DNA of 64,000 nucleotides from Seonamhaeicola sp. S2-3 (GTDB lineage Bacteria; Bacteroidota; Bacteroidia; Flavobacteriales; Flavobacteriaceae): assembly GCF_001971785.1 (NCBI RefSeq), contig NZ_CP019389.1:1871001-1935000 (forward strand), written 5' to 3'. The first letter of the stretch is position 1. The number at the start of each line of letters is the position of its first letter. The notes below the pieces were generated by a model. The model saw only the letters and a program-made list of their open reading frames with translations, was not told the DNA's origin and made no database searches. Shown here piece after piece: positions 31,539 through 38,353 of the stretch. The position numbers and the translations under genes are program-made.

Positions 31539-31565
31539 ATGCCTTATTTTTAGTAAAAAATTAAT

Positions 31566-31653
31566 TGGGGCGTTCCCCAGTAGGGTCGGGCTTTCGGCAG
31601 TCGCTCCCTCCTTAGGTCGGGGAGCTTCAACAAATGCCTCAATCCCTAACGCC
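31566..31653. repeat. GC-rich intergenic repeat-like block
   Basis: Much more GC-rich than its surroundings, with palindromes GGGGCGTTCCCC and stretches such as GTCGGGCTTTCGGC and TAGGTCGGGGAGCTTC. I recognise sequences of this kind as dispersed intergenic repeats in Flavobacteriia. It reads through a short open frame on the minus strand that I do not accept as a gene. Confidence 0.45.
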
Positions 31654-31673
31654 TTAAAAGTATTATCCAAATT

Positions 31674-31768
31674 ATGACACGTATTGACTGCTTTTGACAT
31701 CTATTGACATGTTTTGACATCTATTGACATCAATTGACTACTATTGACACCAATTGACTACTATTGAC
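31674..31768 (+). repeat. Array of ten 10-bp units ending in TTGAC (helically phased)
   Basis: TTGAC occurs nine times in a row at exactly 10-bp spacing, starting at 31684, 31694, 31704, 31714, 31724, 31734, 31744, 31754 and 31764, and a tenth copy with one change (ATGAC) begins at 31674. The five bases between vary among ATCTA, ATCAA, TACTA, ACCAA and ATGTT. Ten base pairs is one helical turn, so all copies face the same side of the DNA. It is in a non-coding gap of an accessory region. A binding array or iteron is possible; a simple satellite is the alternative. Confidence 0.8.
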
Positions 31769-31891
31769 CTATTTTTAGCAAATTTTAGGGGTTTTGCTCG
31801 AGTTTTGTTCGAGGATTGTTCGTCTCAGCTAGGGGTTTATTTTTTTAAAATCGATTTTTGAGGGAGAAAGATGGGAGAAAACTACTCCCTA

Positions 31892-32002
31892 GTCATTGCG
31901 AACCTTTCGACGGGGCTCAAGACAAGCTGTAGTGAAGCAATCTCTAAGTCATTTAGGCTATGTATTAATGAGACTGCTTCGTCGTACCTCCTCGCAGTGA
32001 CG
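31892..32002. repeat. REP-like imperfect inverted repeat, copy 1
   Basis: Begins GTCATTGCG and ends CGCAGTGACG, with internal GAAGCAATCTCT and GAGACTGCTTCGTCG facing each other, so the whole unit can fold into a long stem. This is the type of dispersed palindromic element often seen between genes in Bacteroidota. Confidence 0.65.
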
Positions 32003-32012
32003 GAAAGGTATT

Positions 32013-32090
32013 CGTCATTACAAGCGCAGTGAAGCAATCTCTCGGCTAATGAATGAAGAGACTGCTTCGTCGTGCCTCCTCGTAATATCG
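32013..32090. repeat. REP-like imperfect inverted repeat, copy 2
   Basis: Second, shorter copy 10 bp after the first: CGTCATTACAAG at the left, GCAGTGAAGCAATCTCT and AGAGACTGCTTCGTCGTGCC inside, CTCGTAATATCG at the right. The two copies share the GAAGCAATCTCT and GACTGCTTCGTCG cores. Confidence 0.65.
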
Positions 32091-32194
32091 GTATGGGTTT
32101 ATTTCCTTATTCACATGTCGTTATTGCTAGTATCTCCACAATTTAAAAGTTTTATAAAAATTTATTACCTTAATGCATCAAAAAAAATAAGGTT

Positions 32195-32905
32195 ATGAAA
32201 GTAGATTTAAAACAACAATTACTAAAACACCGAAACAAACACCTTACCGAAGCCCATATTTTAAACCAAGTGCAAGCTATTTTAAACCAAGATGCACAAC
32301 ACGAAGCCAAAATAAACAAAGCCCTAGCAAACGGAACTACAGGAAATAATAACCAGTTTAATGTAGATTTGTTAGAAACCGACCGGATATTTCATATCAG
32401 CCATATTCAATTTATTTGTATTACCTACCGTTTACGGTTTTTAAATAGTAATTTGTTTAAAGCCAACATTCCGCAAGAAGCTATAAACCAAATAAAACAA
32501 TTAGAAAAAGCACATAAAACCACACTTTCTGGTTTTAAAATAATGGCCCCTAGTAAACTATTTAAACTAGAAAATTATGACGACCCATTACTGTTTGCGC
32601 CCATAGGTAACGGTTATTATTACCTGATACACAAATGGGGGAATGATTTAAGCGTATGGCGCAAATGGCTCATGTACCCCTTTAGAAACCTTGATACCAT
32701 TATTGTTAGTGCTGTAGTAGCAGCTATTTTAATAGCGCTTAGTTTTCCAGAAAGCTACTACCACCCTAAATACAAAACCACTCAGTTTATATTTTTATGC
32801 TTTTTTATGTTTAAAACTATAGGCTTTTGCCTCATCTTTTTTGGTGTAAGCAAAGGCAAAAACTTTAACTCAGCTATTTGGAATAGCGGGTTTAGGGAGG
32901 GGTAG
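32195..32905 (+). CDS. Hypothetical membrane protein
   Basis: A 236-residue protein that I do not recognise. The first 160 residues are soluble and hydrophilic (LKQQLLKHRNKHLTEAHIL, then ISHIQFICITYRLRFLNSNLF and a hydrophobic-aromatic FAPIGNGYYYLIHKWGNDLSVW shortened to GNGYYYLIHKWG). The last third has two membrane segments (about 170-190, IIVSAVVAAILIALSF, and 200-222, FIFLCFFMFKTIGFCLIFFGV). No signal peptide, so the soluble part should be cytoplasmic. It stands alone between the repeats and the Mks/Wadjet-like operon, which points the opposite way. Confidence 0.65.
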   Translation: MKVDLKQQLLKHRNKHLTEAHILNQVQAILNQDAQHEAKINKALANGTTGNNNQFNVDLLETDRIFHISHIQFICITYRLRFLNSNLFKANIPQEAINQIKQLEKAHKTTLSGFKIMAPSKLFKLENYDDPLLFAPIGNGYYYLIHKWGNDLSVWRKWLMYPFRNLDTIIVSAVVAAILIALSFPESYYHPKYKTTQFIFLCFFMFKTIGFCLIFFGVSKGKNFNSAIWNSGFREG

Positions 32906-33007
32906 GTTAGTCTGGATTAGATTTATTTTTAATATTTGGAGGTAAGTATTGAGTTGGTTTAGCCAGAAGTAAGATTACTATTATAGTTGAAGAATAATAG
33001 TATAACT

Positions 33008-33523
33008 TTAATTAATATGTGTTTTAATTAAGTCACGTGCAAAGTCAATAAATAGTTTATAAGCCTTCGTAAATGAATATTTATCATCAGAATGTTTTAT
33101 TGCTATGTTTCTTTTTACCATAGTCGAACCAACTAATCTTTTGATGCTTTCTCCATCATTTAATTGTTTGTTCGCTTTTACTACATCTGTCCAAGTACTG
33201 TTTTTTATGTATTCTACTATCTCGTCAATATGGAAGTCTGAAAAGCCTAGTTCATCCATAAAGTTTTTCCCATCCTTGTCTAATTCGTAGCATAGAATCG
33301 AGAAGAAGATGCTGATATCTCGAGAAGTGTTCTCGTTTGTTTCATCTGAAATCAGATAATAAAACTCTTGCGTGTTTTTAAGTTCAAATCCAAATGATTT
33401 GTCAAAAAACTCAACATAGAAATTTTGATTTTCCTTTAGAATATCAAAATATGGCTCATCAATTGTGATAAATCTGCCATCCATTAAAGATGTCACTATT
33501 TGCTTATGTTTATTCGGATACAT
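33008..33523 (-). CDS. KITE-like condensin subunit (MksE/JetB-like)
   Basis: A 171-residue protein that fits the small winged-helix (KITE) subunit of bacterial condensins of the MukE/MksE type. The N-terminal MDGRFITIDEPYFDILKENQNFYVEFFDKSFGFEL shortened to its GRFIT and YFDILKEN parts, the YYLISDETNENTSRDISIFFSIL core and the C-terminal wHTH with LVGSTMVKRNIAIKHSDDKYSFT shortened to MVKRNIA are the features I used. In Mks and Wadjet systems this protein binds the kleisin. Last gene of the four-gene operon, overlapping the kleisin gene by 14 nt. Family assignment rests on context as much as on sequence. Confidence 0.75.
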   Translation of the reverse strand: MYPNKHKQIVTSLMDGRFITIDEPYFDILKENQNFYVEFFDKSFGFELKNTQEFYYLISDETNENTSRDISIFFSILCYELDKDGKNFMDELGFSDFHIDEIVEYIKNSTWTDVVKANKQLNDGESIKRLVGSTMVKRNIAIKHSDDKYSFTKAYKLFIDFARDLIKTHIN

Positions 33524-34721
33524 TCTCTTTTTTGCTGATTTTTAGTTTGGGCATAATAAATTCTCCTTGTTTTGTTTTCAAAGAAATATTCTCCCCTTCC
33601 TTATCTTGTTCAATATCGTATTCTTCTTCAAATATTAGACTTGTTACCATAAAGTAGTCGTCAATATTAAAATCTTTCTTTTCATTTTCAATTGCGTTTT
33701 TACACCAAGAGAAGAAGTCAGTTATAGGAAGCTTTGAGTTTAGTTGAGATTTGTACTCATTTTTATTGAATATCCATTGCTCAATATCGTTGGCTTCTTC
33801 TTCAACAAAAACATCTTCTTCATTTTTAAATTGCTCAAAATACTCTTTTGTGTTTTCGTAGATATACGGATTGTATAGATTATCTCTGGAAGTACTGAAT
33901 ATTTTTGGCGGCTTTATTCCTTTGTAACAATTCATATTTGTCAGATACAAATGAAACCCAAGTAAATATTCACTTTCTGTTCTAATTCTGTCCAATAATG
34001 GCAAAAGTTCGTTGCTTAAGATTGTCGATTGTTGACTGATGTCCTTAACGACTTGTCGTAAAAGATTGTAGAGTTTTTCAAATTGTCTTCTGATACTTTC
34101 GTCTGAATAATCAAATCGTTTGTTGTTAGAAAATTGAGAAATTGCAAGTAATTCGTTATAAATCGATTGCGAGTGATTGATATCCAAAATTGTATTCAAG
34201 GGAATAATATAGTAATCAATTAAATATCTGGCAGTTTGTACTTTTTCTTGATATTCAATTTTTCGAGTATTGGCTTTTAACTCTCTTGATTCATTTAGAA
34301 GGCTAATTGTATTGTTAGTTACGGCAGTTCTGAACTTTTTGATTTCATTGGATAACGCTTCAATTCTGTCCAACAAAATGTTTTTGTCTTGATTGATACC
34401 TTCTTTAATATTCAAAAACAAGGTTCTTATAGATTGACCAAATTTTTCAATTTCTTCAGGAAGCAAAGGTTTAAATTGTTGCAGAACAAACTCAAATAGA
34501 ACAAAATAGGGTTCGTTAATCACAAAGTCATCATTCTGTTCAACGAGTATTTTGTGCTCAAAAAGTTGGGATTCTATATCGCTTCCAAATTCATCAAGTG
34601 TTTCAGCCACTTGGCTTTTCAAGATGATTTCATTCTTAACTTGAATGTCGAAGAGTTGTCGTAGCAAGTCAAAATGAGTTGCCAAAAATTGTACTATGCT
34701 CTTTGGTTCTGATTTAAACAT
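33510..34721 (-). CDS. Kleisin-like condensin subunit (MksF/JetA-like)
   Basis: A 403-residue, mainly helical protein. The first 70 residues look like a winged helix (IVQFLATHFDLLRQLFDIQVKNE), followed by FVLFEFVLQQFKPLLPEEI, long helices with heptad pattern (about 90-260; ILLDRIEALSNEIKKF, QQSTILSNELLPLLDRI) and an acidic C-terminal part ending in a second small domain (FFSWCKNAIENEKKDFN, about 345-375). This is the layout of MukF/MksF kleisins that close the SMC ring. It overlaps the TOPRIM gene by 8 nt and the KITE gene by 14 nt. Supported by its place between the other Mks/Jet subunits. Confidence 0.75.
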   Translation of the reverse strand: MFKSEPKSIVQFLATHFDLLRQLFDIQVKNEIILKSQVAETLDEFGSDIESQLFEHKILVEQNDDFVINEPYFVLFEFVLQQFKPLLPEEIEKFGQSIRTLFLNIKEGINQDKNILLDRIEALSNEIKKFRTAVTNNTISLLNESRELKANTRKIEYQEKVQTARYLIDYYIIPLNTILDINHSQSIYNELLAISQFSNNKRFDYSDESIRRQFEKLYNLLRQVVKDISQQSTILSNELLPLLDRIRTESEYLLGFHLYLTNMNCYKGIKPPKIFSTSRDNLYNPYIYENTKEYFEQFKNEEDVFVEEEANDIEQWIFNKNEYKSQLNSKLPITDFFSWCKNAIENEKKDFNIDDYFMVTSLIFEEEYDIEQDKEGENISLKTKQGEFIMPKLKISKKENVSE

Positions 34722-35508
34722 TGATGAGCGTTTCTTGTTCTAAAAATCTATTAGTTCGGGCGACTTGTTCCCTAATTTTTACGACTGTTGAATCATTTGA
34801 TGTCTTAACAGCCTTACTCATTTTTGCTTTGTTTCCTTTTAAAGATGCCGAATGCTTTTTAAAGAGTTCACTGTAATTATTTGGCAAATACAATTCTGCA
34901 TTTCCAAACACTTCTTTGATTCTTAAATATTCGTCAAGTCCATTAAAGTCATAGTCAACAAAAACCAAAACTTCCTTTGCTTTAATCATTGAAATAGATT
35001 CTTTGCCTATTCGTCCGTATCTGTGTATAAATAGAAATTCGTTGCCCAATAATTTTTCCGCATTCAAAAAGGTTTCCAAATTCTCGACAAAACATATTTT
35101 ATCAGCTATGACGGAAATAGGAATTACAGAGAACAATCCAAAATCACGAGTTTGCTTTTCTAAATCAATTATCTGCTCATTGATTTGATAAGTAGAAAAT
35201 CCCCTAAACAAAAATATTGGACTGCTATCAACCTTTGTCGCCTTTGAATTTCTGTATTTTTTGATGTTTCCTGATTTGCTTTTAGAAACGTCTTGCTCCG
35301 GAAATGTTGAGTTGAAAAATTTTTCAAATTCGATCTCCTTGGAAACATCAATTTTAAATCCTCTCCCAAATTTTGAAGATTTAAGAATTTCGGCTTGTAA
35401 CAAATTTTGAAACATATTGGATTGCAAAACACTTTTCGGAATGGCCGATTTTGCAACACTTTTGTTTTGAAGCAATAATTGATATGTTTTGAAATCTACT
35501 TCTTTCAT
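34714..35508 (-). CDS. Compact TOPRIM nuclease subunit (MksG/JetD-like)
   Basis: A 264-residue protein whose C-terminal half carries the TOPRIM pattern: Glu142 in CFVENLETF and the DxD pair Asp185/Asp187 in VLVFVDYDFNGLDEYLR. In Wadjet JetD and MksG this domain cuts plasmid DNA. The N-terminal 120 residues are basic, with KSVLQSNMFQNLLQAEIL and SSKFGRGFKIDV, and could form a wHTH for DNA binding. JetD of type I is clearly longer as I recall, so this is a short form. I use the ATG at 35508, sharing one base with the SMC stop (TGATG); a GTG one codon upstream is also possible. Confidence 0.75.
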   Translation of the reverse strand: MKEVDFKTYQLLLQNKSVAKSAIPKSVLQSNMFQNLLQAEILKSSKFGRGFKIDVSKEIEFEKFFNSTFPEQDVSKSKSGNIKKYRNSKATKVDSSPIFLFRGFSTYQINEQIIDLEKQTRDFGLFSVIPISVIADKICFVENLETFLNAEKLLGNEFLFIHRYGRIGKESISMIKAKEVLVFVDYDFNGLDEYLRIKEVFGNAELYLPNNYSELFKKHSASLKGNKAKMSKAVKTSNDSTVVKIREQVARTNRFLEQETLINV

Positions 35509-38168
35509 CACGCTTCAACGGGTTTTCTGAAGATAACATTTCCATTTTTCTCACTCACCACTATTTTTCCTTGGCTTCTCCTCACCAAATAGTATTTGTC
35601 AAAACCGTCATAAGGATGCAATGGTGCGGCTGAAATCGGTATGAAGTTATGTTCTTTACAGAAGTTCAAAATTTCAATTCTATTTGCCTCGTCAATGGTT
35701 CCGATTTCATCCACAAATATCACAATCTTGTTTTCATCATCTTTCACAACGATTTGATTGATGATTGACATAATCAGAACCAAACGTATCATTTTGTCTG
35801 TACCGTCCGATTCGATTTGGTTTTTTAGGTCCACGACTTTATGTTGCCCTTTTTTATGCAGATGAAGTTTAATATCAAACAAATCATTGAATGAAATTGT
35901 GGTTTGACTATCCAAATATTTGTTGAGCGTATTTAGGTTTTCAGATTGGTCTTCAAAAATCAGTTCAGATGTTAAATCCCTGATTTGGATGATTTTGTTT
36001 AAATCCTTGATGAGTTTTTCATTCTCAATGATTTCTATTTTCAACGTATCGATATCCGAAATTTTTATCTTCCGAATTTTTGAATTGAACTGATTGGTTA
36101 TATAAGAGTTGAACTCTTCAAATCTTGAATATAGCGTGCGACAAGGATTTGCAAATTGGGTGGAAATATTTTTTAACAAGCCATCAATAGCTTTTTGTTT
36201 ATCGTCTAATGTGACCAATTCCAAATCAACGTGTTTTATAAAATCGGTTTCACTAGCAAAAGAAGTTTCTGTTTTGGATTTTAGCTTTTCAAAGAGACTA
36301 TCTTTTTTATATTTGATGTCTTTTCTTTCCTCAAAGTTTCGTTTAAGATTTTTATAGATATTATCTAAAGAATCGGTGGTCTGATATTCTTTGGGTATTA
36401 TACCGAGTTGCTCAAGTTCAACTTTCCAATCTTGAATTTCTTTTATTCTATTCTCTTTATTTATAATCTCTTTATCCGCTTGCCTTATCGCTTCTTCTAA
36501 CTTTCTTATTTCTTCTTCGAGCAGTTTTATTTCTTTAGTTGATTGCTCTTTTTGTTTGAGTAAATTTTCAAATTCCAACTTTATGGATTCAAGTTCCTTC
36601 TCAAAGTTTGGAAGCTGTTTTAGCTTTTCAATTTTATCGGTTACACCCTTGATTTTCTTCTTTATTTCTTCTAAATCCTTTTGATGTTTCTCTAAATCCT
36701 TGGCTATAGGAAGTAGTTTTTCATTAAGGCTTTTTTCCTTTTCAAATTCCTTAATTTGTTGCTTTAAATCTTCAATGGATTCTATTGGCTTTCCTTTCAA
36801 ACCATTCGGCAGCTTTATAACACCATCAAAGAGTTTCATCAAGTTTTCCGTTTTTGAAATTTTATCGGAAATGTGGTCGGACGATAGACTTGAAATATCA
36901 GTAGACAAAATTCTATTTAAAAGTTCCTTGTTGTCTTGATTATCTGAAATTTGATGAATCAATTGACTAGAATAGCTTTCTACTTGATATGTGATTTTTT
37001 GAATTTGAGTTTTGGCTTTCTCAATTTTGCTCTCAATGTCTTTACTGCTTAAATTTTGGTTCTCGATTTGGGTTAGTTGACTTTCTATATCCTTTCTTTC
37101 TTTATCCAAGTTTTGAAAGGATTGCTCCAAAAACTGTAAACTCTCAAACGACTTGATTTCTTTTACCAATTTATCTTTTTGGTCAATATCCTTCTGCTTT
37201 TGTTTCAATTGGGTTTCAATTTTACCCAATTCTTGGTTTAGTCGGTCTTTTTTCGGGTTGAGCGTTTCATTTAAATGGGTTCTATCTTTGTCTCTTTTAA
37301 TTTTCATTTTTGAAACAGAAGTTGCCAATTCTGAATAAAGTGATGAATATTGATGGTCAAAAGCAAATATCAACTCTGAAAGTATCGTACTTTTTCCTGC
37401 ATACTGATTTACCAATTCTTTGAAGTCATTAAAGCTACGTTGGATACTTTTGATAACTTTTATATCCCGATTGTGCTTTAATAAGGTTTGTATGTCCTTT
37501 TGGTTTTTCTTTGAAAATGAAACGCTTTCGTTTTCCTTATTATCTGCAATTATCAATGACTCTTTTAGCGAGTTGTTGTTTATAAGCTTTGAATTTATCA
37601 GGTACTTATAGATTTTGGAAAAATTGTTGCTAATTCCTCGTCCGTCTTGGTTTATATTTTGGTTTAACCAAACTACCGCATTGTTTCGTTTGCCTTTCTG
37701 ATAGATAAAGTTGAAAACTTCTCTACGGTTTGGAAATTTGTTGTGCTCAATTCCATTAGTGGCAAATTCGGAAAGTAATGAGTCAAACTTTTTTAGTTTT
37801 TGGCCGTTTGCAGTGTCGGTAAAATAGAGTTTTTCTTTATATTCACTATCAATTTTATAATAGTCGAGATTACCTTCGGCATTTCTTTTGACCAAAATAG
37901 AGTAGTAGCGATTTTTGAAAATCTCAAAGACAATATAACTTGAATTTATAGAAGGAAAATAATGGTTGAATGTGGTTTTGTCTCCTGTTCGATTTCCGCT
38001 AAAAGTCATTTCTCTTCCATCAATTATAAATAGAAAGTTTAGAGCGTAAATCAATGTGCTTTTTCCGATGTTGTTTGGTCCTACAATTTGAAGAGAATTA
38101 CAATTGTCAAGTTCTATATCTGCTTTTGAGTATATATCAGAATTCAGTATTATGAGTCTTTTTAACAT
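35508..38168 (-). CDS. SMC-like ATPase of an Mks/Wadjet-type condensin (MksB/JetC-like)
   Basis: An 886-residue SMC ATPase. Walker A GPNNIGKST is at residues 30-38; a very long coiled coil (about 250-640, with many KELEEIKKKI-like heptads) is interrupted near the middle by a short hinge-like segment (about 420-460, SSLSSDHISDKISKTENL); the ABC signature-like ESDGT is at 786-790 and Walker B KIVIFVDE with catalytic Glu821 at 814-821. The signature departs from LSGGQ, as in MukB-type proteins. First gene of the operon, downstream of thyA on the same strand. In such systems the SMC ring extrudes loops and presents small circular DNA to the TOPRIM nuclease. Confidence 0.83.
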   Translation of the reverse strand: MLKRLIILNSDIYSKADIELDNCNSLQIVGPNNIGKSTLIYALNFLFIIDGREMTFSGNRTGDKTTFNHYFPSINSSYIVFEIFKNRYYSILVKRNAEGNLDYYKIDSEYKEKLYFTDTANGQKLKKFDSLLSEFATNGIEHNKFPNRREVFNFIYQKGKRNNAVVWLNQNINQDGRGISNNFSKIYKYLINSKLINNNSLKESLIIADNKENESVSFSKKNQKDIQTLLKHNRDIKVIKSIQRSFNDFKELVNQYAGKSTILSELIFAFDHQYSSLYSELATSVSKMKIKRDKDRTHLNETLNPKKDRLNQELGKIETQLKQKQKDIDQKDKLVKEIKSFESLQFLEQSFQNLDKERKDIESQLTQIENQNLSSKDIESKIEKAKTQIQKITYQVESYSSQLIHQISDNQDNKELLNRILSTDISSLSSDHISDKISKTENLMKLFDGVIKLPNGLKGKPIESIEDLKQQIKEFEKEKSLNEKLLPIAKDLEKHQKDLEEIKKKIKGVTDKIEKLKQLPNFEKELESIKLEFENLLKQKEQSTKEIKLLEEEIRKLEEAIRQADKEIINKENRIKEIQDWKVELEQLGIIPKEYQTTDSLDNIYKNLKRNFEERKDIKYKKDSLFEKLKSKTETSFASETDFIKHVDLELVTLDDKQKAIDGLLKNISTQFANPCRTLYSRFEEFNSYITNQFNSKIRKIKISDIDTLKIEIIENEKLIKDLNKIIQIRDLTSELIFEDQSENLNTLNKYLDSQTTISFNDLFDIKLHLHKKGQHKVVDLKNQIESDGTDKMIRLVLIMSIINQIVVKDDENKIVIFVDEIGTIDEANRIEILNFCKEHNFIPISAAPLHPYDGFDKYYLVRRSQGKIVVSEKNGNVIFRKPVEA

Positions 38169-38353
38169 TGGATTTTTAAAATAGTTCTCAGTGATAAATG
38201 GAAAATTATATTATTTTACAACCATTTGCATTTTTAAGGGTTGTTAATATTTTAACATCAATGATGTATAACCAATTTTATACCCTAAATCAAGCGAATT
38301 TATATAGTTTTTCCGACAAAATCAAGAAGAAGCACTATTTTAAACCCTCAAAC

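Follow-up and report, generated by a model that had tools for sequence, protein, structure and literature searches.

An SMC-TOPRIM-KITE operon with a putative kleisin

Our analysis concerns a window of 64,000 nucleotides (nt) of Seonamhaeicola sp. S2-3 (contig NZ_CP019389.1, positions 1,871,001 to 1,935,000) and, within it, four overlapping open reading frames (ORFs) on the minus strand that run from 38168 to 33008 and encode, in this order, an SMC protein, a TOPRIM protein, a kleisin-like protein and a KITE protein. An initial annotation, made from the sequence, had read these genes as an operon of the MksBEFG/Wadjet kind. The genes and their motifs are the following (coordinates of the window; letters in brackets are the Mks subunits; L107 and L108 are related loci described below).

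35508..38168, minus strand: SMC ATPase, MksB/JetC-like (B), 886 amino acids (aa); DUF3584 match, invariant Walker residues
38055..38081, minus strand: SMC Walker A motif GPNNIGKST, residues 30-38; N32, N33, G35, K36 and S37 invariant in 12/12 alignment rows
35799..35810, minus strand: SMC signature-like motif SDGT, residues 787-790; S787, G789 and T790 invariant in 12/12 rows
35706..35720, minus strand: SMC Walker B motif IFVDE, residues 817-821; V819, D820 and E821 invariant in 12/12 rows
34714..35508, minus strand: predicted TOPRIM nuclease, MksG/JetD-like (G), 264 aa; structure model, PDB matches, JetD profile alignment
34948..35085, minus strand: stretch with the predicted TOPRIM catalytic residues E142, D185 and D187, invariant in 15/15 rows
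34735..34749, minus strand: TOPRIM C-terminal motif RFLEQ, residues 254-258, in 15/15 rows
33510..34721, minus strand: putative kleisin, MksF/JetA-like (F), 403 aa, the weakest assignment; weak fold matches, similarity to L107/L108
33008..33523, minus strand: KITE protein, MksE/JetB-like (E), 171 aa; Pfam MksE, JetB profile

With ATG taken as the start of the TOPRIM gene (the ORF listing begins one codon upstream, at GTG), the genes overlap by 1, 8 and 14 nt, as the initial annotation had said. The Walker A motif at residues 30-38, the Walker B motif with E821 and the three acidic TOPRIM residues that it named are all present.

This is not a chance arrangement. One scan of bacterial genomes gave 15 related loci with 65-94% identity over the matched SMC part, and 13 of them show all four genes in the same B-G-F-E order; contig ends truncate the remaining two, L014 within the kleisin gene and L018 within the SMC gene. 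Among the 13, locus L013 comes from a metagenome-derived genome and its TOPRIM and KITE frames are broken, and L010, an Ulvibacter record (Flavobacteriaceae, the family of S2-3), is the same stretch as L035. The order is shared by the distant loci L036, whose SMC protein is about 30% identical, and L074. Conservation was read from four alignments, which left out L010, L013 (broken frames) and L018 (cut) in A1; L007, L008, L010, L014 and L018 in A2; L007, L008, L010, L013, L014, L015, L018 and L019 in A3; and L007, L010, L013, L017, L018 and L019 in A4. L074 was found later and is part of none of them.

Family assignments

Three of the four proteins could be assigned to known families. The SMC protein scored 63.4 bits against Pfam DUF3584 (cut-off 31, E 1.1e-17), and this score, together with the conserved Walker A, SxGT and DE motifs, identifies it by sequence as an ATPase of the MukB/JetC kind. 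In the profile alignment, SDGT falls on the SGG region of canonical JetC. The small KITE-like protein of the initial annotation was borne out by a score of 82.6 bits against Pfam MksE (PF21980, cut-off 27) and by a profile comparison with canonical JetB (E 1.5e-4, probability 51%), which place it in the MksE/JetB family. Sequence and profile searches of the PDB gave nothing relevant: centrin and other unrelated proteins were all that the SMC profile retrieved, and a single autotransporter fragment (E 0.93) was the yield of the kleisin profile.

The AlphaFold2 model of the TOPRIM protein had a mean pLDDT (predicted local distance difference test) of 82.8. Its PDB fold matches were, in order, 8b7f ('Nuclease from C. 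glutamicum', which we take to be MksG), JetD of P. aeruginosa (7til), two entries of Topo VI-A, and Spo11; an E-value of 0.001 or less was reached by only 3 of the 770 matches. When its profile was compared with that of ten canonical JetD proteins from Bacteroidota (E 1.3e-4), E142-N143, D185, D187 and the LEQ motif aligned with invariant counterparts: E142, D185 and D187 with E247, D290 and D292, and RFLEQ with an RLEQ present in 10/10 canonical rows. Model and alignment thus indicate a JetD/MksG/Topo VI-A fold with an acidic metal site. The fold is shared with Topo VI-A and Spo11 in both its TOPRIM and winged-helix parts, whereas the window protein is shorter and is encoded with an SMC complex. 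Because the aligned part starts at residue 132, where canonical JetD is already at residue 237 (profile column 251), the protein lacks about 105-120 N-terminal residues. Its modelled N-terminus is winged-helix-like, with helices and strands within residues 3-55, and may be a shortened CAP arm. For MksG, the published work reports that the E236A and D279A exchanges drastically impair nuclease activity and proposes two C-terminal glutamates as alternative nucleophiles (PMC10123090). The first of these glutamates, E257 in the window protein, is kept in 15/15 rows.

The assignment of the fourth protein, 403 aa and helical, as a kleisin is weak. Neither it nor its family members gave a sensible match to Pfam or other families, and its model was poor (pLDDT 58). 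The first four PDB matches of this model were chains of JetABCD, MukBEF, MukE-MukF and JetABC entries, with the subunits unnamed in the output, and the protein resembles the first gene of compact operons with F-E-B-G order.

Comparison with type I Wadjet and other Mks operons

Genomes with an MksE match numbered 60, and stretches were taken from 20 of them besides the genome of S2-3. Seventeen of the 20 held an MksE match and three (L068, L069 and L070) had a JetD-type gene instead. G512 (L113), with an MksE score below the cut-off, showed no such operon in its stretch.

Thirteen Bacteroidota stretches with type I-like genes (L064-L073 and L110-L112) were compared with the window operon. In nine of them kleisin, KITE, SMC and JetD follow one another in the order F-E-B-G (F by position), with lengths, from the first start codon, of 482-506 aa for F, 191-248 for E, 1124-1171 for B and 380-403 for G. 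The exceptions are L068, which starts at a contig end, L069 and L070, with an SMC-JetD pair but no adjoining F and E, and L111, with F-E-B but no G. Type I Wadjet has the order A-B-C-D (F-E-B-G), whereas the window operon has C-D-A-B (B-G-F-E), a circular rotation, and all four window subunits are shorter than those of type I. The SMC protein has 886 aa against 1122-1137 aa in eight type I rows of our tree and 1111 aa in C. glutamicum MksB; the TOPRIM protein has 264 aa against 380-403 in ten canonical loci, 382-384 in two more and 412 in the second L070 copy. Common to MksBEFG/type I Wadjet and the window operon are the SMC protein, the MksE-family KITE and a TOPRIM protein with E, DxD and LEQ; the putative kleisin would be a fourth shared part.

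In a tree of SMC heads (21 rows; the canonical loci L068 and L070-L073 were left out, as were several near-copies of the window operon), the eight type I rows are set apart with support of 100/99. The eight rotated-order rows group together at 84/97, and with L107, L108 and L105 at 92/97; both of these branches lie under the tool's mark for firm support, and L105 is a long branch. In the KITE tree (18 rows) L107 joins L105, L106 and L109 rather than the rotated operons, a placement that carries a long-branch warning and was not relied on. Gene order, subunit sizes and SMC tree all disagree with type I Wadjet, which was rejected as an identification. The rotated order, the short subunits and the placement outside type I go beyond the initial annotation. 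Types II and III were compared through their PADLOC profiles, and 'outside types I to III' is a statement at the level of those profiles.

Two operons, L107 and L108, from two genomes of another Bacteroidota family, are compact like the window operon but keep the canonical order F-E-B-G. Their SMC ORFs have 939 and 962 aa, and in L107 the TOPRIM protein has 288, the kleisin 420 and the KITE protein 191 aa. Profiles run against the ORFs of nine stretches, with E-values that refer to this small set, connected L107 and L108 with the window operon through SMC (3e-46 and 4e-46), TOPRIM (2e-16 and 1e-11) and kleisin (1e-9 and 2e-10), and L107 also through KITE (1e-4), so that all four window proteins have homologues side by side in L107. 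The KITE protein of L108 is an MksE match (84.3 bits). MksBEF condensins share an MksE-family KITE with the window operon, and in the tree the SMC heads of both fall together on one side; they differ in that the F-E-B stretch L105 shows no TOPRIM gene.

Further F-E-B-G-like operons with an MksE-family KITE and an SMC protein of 1056-1080 aa lie in L106 (3735-9826) and L109 (5501-11623). Their last gene encodes 305-317 aa with at most weak JetD_C similarity, and they are perhaps another subtype.

Genomic setting and mobility

The operon lies in an accessory block, as the initial annotation had proposed.

31541..38353, no strand assigned: accessory block between thyA and the CBM48 gene; synteny with 6/6 congeners breaks near its ends
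31860..32100, no strand assigned: dispersed repeat within the spacer, with 6 more partial copies elsewhere in the genome

The CBM48 neighbour was confirmed by profile, and thyA, dihydrofolate reductase and etfA were named by reading of the sequences. The operon is present in 1 of the 7 genus genomes (SMC query), 3 of the 199 genomes of the family sample (TOPRIM query) and 2 of the 395 of the phylum sample (TOPRIM profile), the genome of S2-3 being included each time. The thyA, CBM48 and dihydrofolate reductase genes are syntenic in all six congeners, which lack the operon. Between thyA and the CBM gene, one congener has fewer than 100 bases, three have a protein of 923-929 aa and two a protein of 288 or 150 aa. 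Since one congener is nearly empty here and five carry unrelated genes, the site is an insertion hotspot. The two ends of the block, compared over 120 bases around each, share no direct repeat of more than 6 bases.

Intergenic repeats had been described as flanking the block. This holds on one side, where the repeat at 31860-32100 lies, four of its six further copies being near 3.13-3.14 Mb (megabases) of contig C1 of the same genome; for the other flank, 38169-38353, a search confined to the window showed no further copy. The block also encodes, at 32195-32905, a protein of 236 aa with a hydrophobic C-terminal part, which gave no Pfam, NCBIfam or PADLOC match and to which tblastn found no counterpart in the related loci or at the hotspot of the congeners.

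Recent transfer was examined by comparing fourfold-degenerate differences of the SMC gene with those of one housekeeping gene, etfA, as the baseline. Between S2-3 and Mesonia, Nonlabens, Arenibacter, Flavobacteriaceae 14752 and Hyunsoonleella, the SMC gene differs by 25-33% while etfA differs by 49-72% (51-60% within the genus), which points to recent transfer of the operon among at least these five lineages. No such gap was seen for Ulvibacter (60 vs 62%) or Algoriphagus (74 vs 72%). No relative turned up in plasmid records queried with the TOPRIM protein, in phage records queried with the SMC protein, or in viral contigs scanned with the profiles of both.

Other SMC machinery in the genus

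In the genome of S2-3 we found one MksE match, one match to the operon SMC, no SMC_prok_B match over the cut-off and no JetD_C match at E 0.001. The ScpA profile found nothing in any of the seven genus genomes; a divergent ScpA could be missed, because the profile was also silent in 5 of 14 control genomes, including Bacteroides ihuae, Thermus and Deinobacterium. The best SMC_N matches in the genus fell in frames whose lengths, about 360-380 and 550-565 aa, we take to be those of RecF and RecN, and none had a score like that of a full-length Smc; G204 showed one weak SMC_N match in a frame of 1135 aa. These profile results suggest that the host may have no SMC loop extruder besides the Mks-like operon.

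Interpretation of the operon

Taken together, these data indicate that the operon probably is an MksBEFG/Wadjet-like plasmid-defence system of a compact subfamily. The likeness in kind seen by the initial annotation stands: the KITE and SMC proteins pass MksE and DUF3584, the TOPRIM fold matches MksG and JetD before all others, the TOPRIM motifs align with JetD, and the block is accessory. The conserved gene order, the recent transfer and the AbiE or restriction-type genes beside some relatives also speak for plasmid defence. Several results weigh against this identification. Against canonical JetC, the SMC head alone was aligned, with a probability of 38%, and the TOPRIM-JetD profile match had an hhalign probability of 54%. 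The best five TOPRIM fold matches had modest template modelling scores (TM-scores) by query length, 0.38-0.44. PADLOC matches, judged by E-value without PADLOC's own cut-offs, were weak for Jet proteins (at best JetD1, 2.9e-4, and JetC1, 1.4e-4), and no JetA or JetB match at E 1 was found among the operon proteins. The kleisin-like protein was not significantly similar to the canonical JetA profile (E 0.088; unrelated control 0.69), and its fold matches were weak (E 3.3e-3 to 2.2e-2, TM-score 0.11-0.16, none at E 0.001).

The TOPRIM protein also scored below the cut-off of Pfam JetD_C (15.3 bits vs 22). The TOPRIM protein of the distant relative L036, in the same kind of operon, does pass JetD_C (24.2 bits vs 22), and JetD_C was matched at E 0.1 in 12 of the 15 TOPRIM rows; the shortfall is a matter of the cut-off of one profile and not a biological feature. 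The second proposed nucleophile, finally, is glutamate in 9 of the 15 TOPRIM rows and glutamine in 6, whereas canonical JetD keeps both C-terminal glutamates in 10/10 rows. Because of these six glutamines the second glutamate would not be strictly required in the compact subfamily, if the alignment is right.

By analogy with type I Wadjet, we infer that the system extrudes loops, senses size, activates its nuclease and targets plasmids. The SMC dimer, joined by kleisin and KITE, would load onto DNA and, driven by ATP, extrude it as a loop. If the DNA is a small circle, extrusion would reach completion, and the stalled complex would then activate the TOPRIM homodimer, which would cut both DNA strands in a metal-dependent reaction. 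The chromosome would be spared because it is too large for complete reeling-in.

The same four genes could instead encode an MksBEF-like condensin that organises the chromosome, in which case the TOPRIM protein would act as a regulator or decatenase and not as a nuclease against plasmids. In favour of this, the SMC heads side with the F-E-B operon L105, which has no G, and not with type I JetC (92/97, not firm, with L105 on a long branch), and S2-3 may have a vacant motor niche, given the missing SMC_prok_B and ScpA matches. However, the operon is missing from six of the seven genus genomes, which themselves show no ScpA match and no SMC_N match like a full Smc, and a housekeeping condensin was rejected on this absence. 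The patchy distribution and recent transfer of the operon, and the invariance of the TOPRIM catalytic residues in 15/15 rows, also speak against it, and we consider a condensin unlikely. Slightly less probable still is a defence system of the same parts directed mainly at something else, for example phage genomes that circularise or conjugative elements, and perhaps with another size threshold, given the short SMC arms and the short N-terminus of the nuclease. Besides the reduced length of both proteins relative to their type I counterparts, this would fit the AbiE and restriction-type genes near some relatives: an AbiEi/AbiEii pair directly downstream of the operon in L009 (5355-7078), part of a cytosine methylase together with an HNH enzyme directly upstream in L011 (6938-7986), and an HNH protein after the operon in L008. 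These, and a ParE toxin near the operon in L005, came from eleven flanking proteins picked by eye, the remainder having weak or no PADLOC matches. Against another target, the characterised relatives act on plasmids, according to three reports (PMC10586767, PMC10123090, PMC12287153). A Lamassu-type SMC defence operon is highly improbable even though the best PADLOC match of the SMC protein is LmuB (E 4.9e-9): this match spans residues 2-517, read as largely coiled coil, the DUF3584 match is stronger (1.1e-17), and the SMC partners are an MksE-family KITE and a JetD-like TOPRIM protein. Lamassu was rejected, with no LmuA or LmuC PADLOC match and partner proteins that do not fit.

Returning to the MksBEFG/Wadjet-like plasmid-defence system, what our analysis adds appears to be a compact, order-rotated and mobile subfamily of predicted function. 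We hold only tentatively the further proposal of a separate mobile subtype, a compact MksBEFG with rotated B-G-F-E order and shortened nuclease, that would be its host's only SMC loop extruder in a genus seemingly without Smc-ScpAB.

Significance

Wadjet work up to 2023 was mostly on type I, according to one account (PMC10586767). Our literature search, with subscription journals mostly outside its scope, returned nothing on Mks in Bacteroidetes or DUF7281, nor on Bacteroidota Wadjet gene order or on the absence of Smc-ScpAB/MukBEF in flavobacteria, and we do not claim novelty. Annotation of the PADLOC type would probably miss such operons, because none of the four proteins gave a strong Jet match.

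With its shorter SMC protein and a nuclease that lacks about 105-120 N-terminal residues, a smaller system would reveal which parts sensing and cutting require. The compact subfamily may also bear on which glutamate is the nucleophile, given that E257 is invariant and the second glutamate is not. If the operon is indeed the sole loop extruder of its host, action on the chromosome and on plasmids would be separable without a background condensin. Such operons could also add to the poor transformability of some Bacteroidota.

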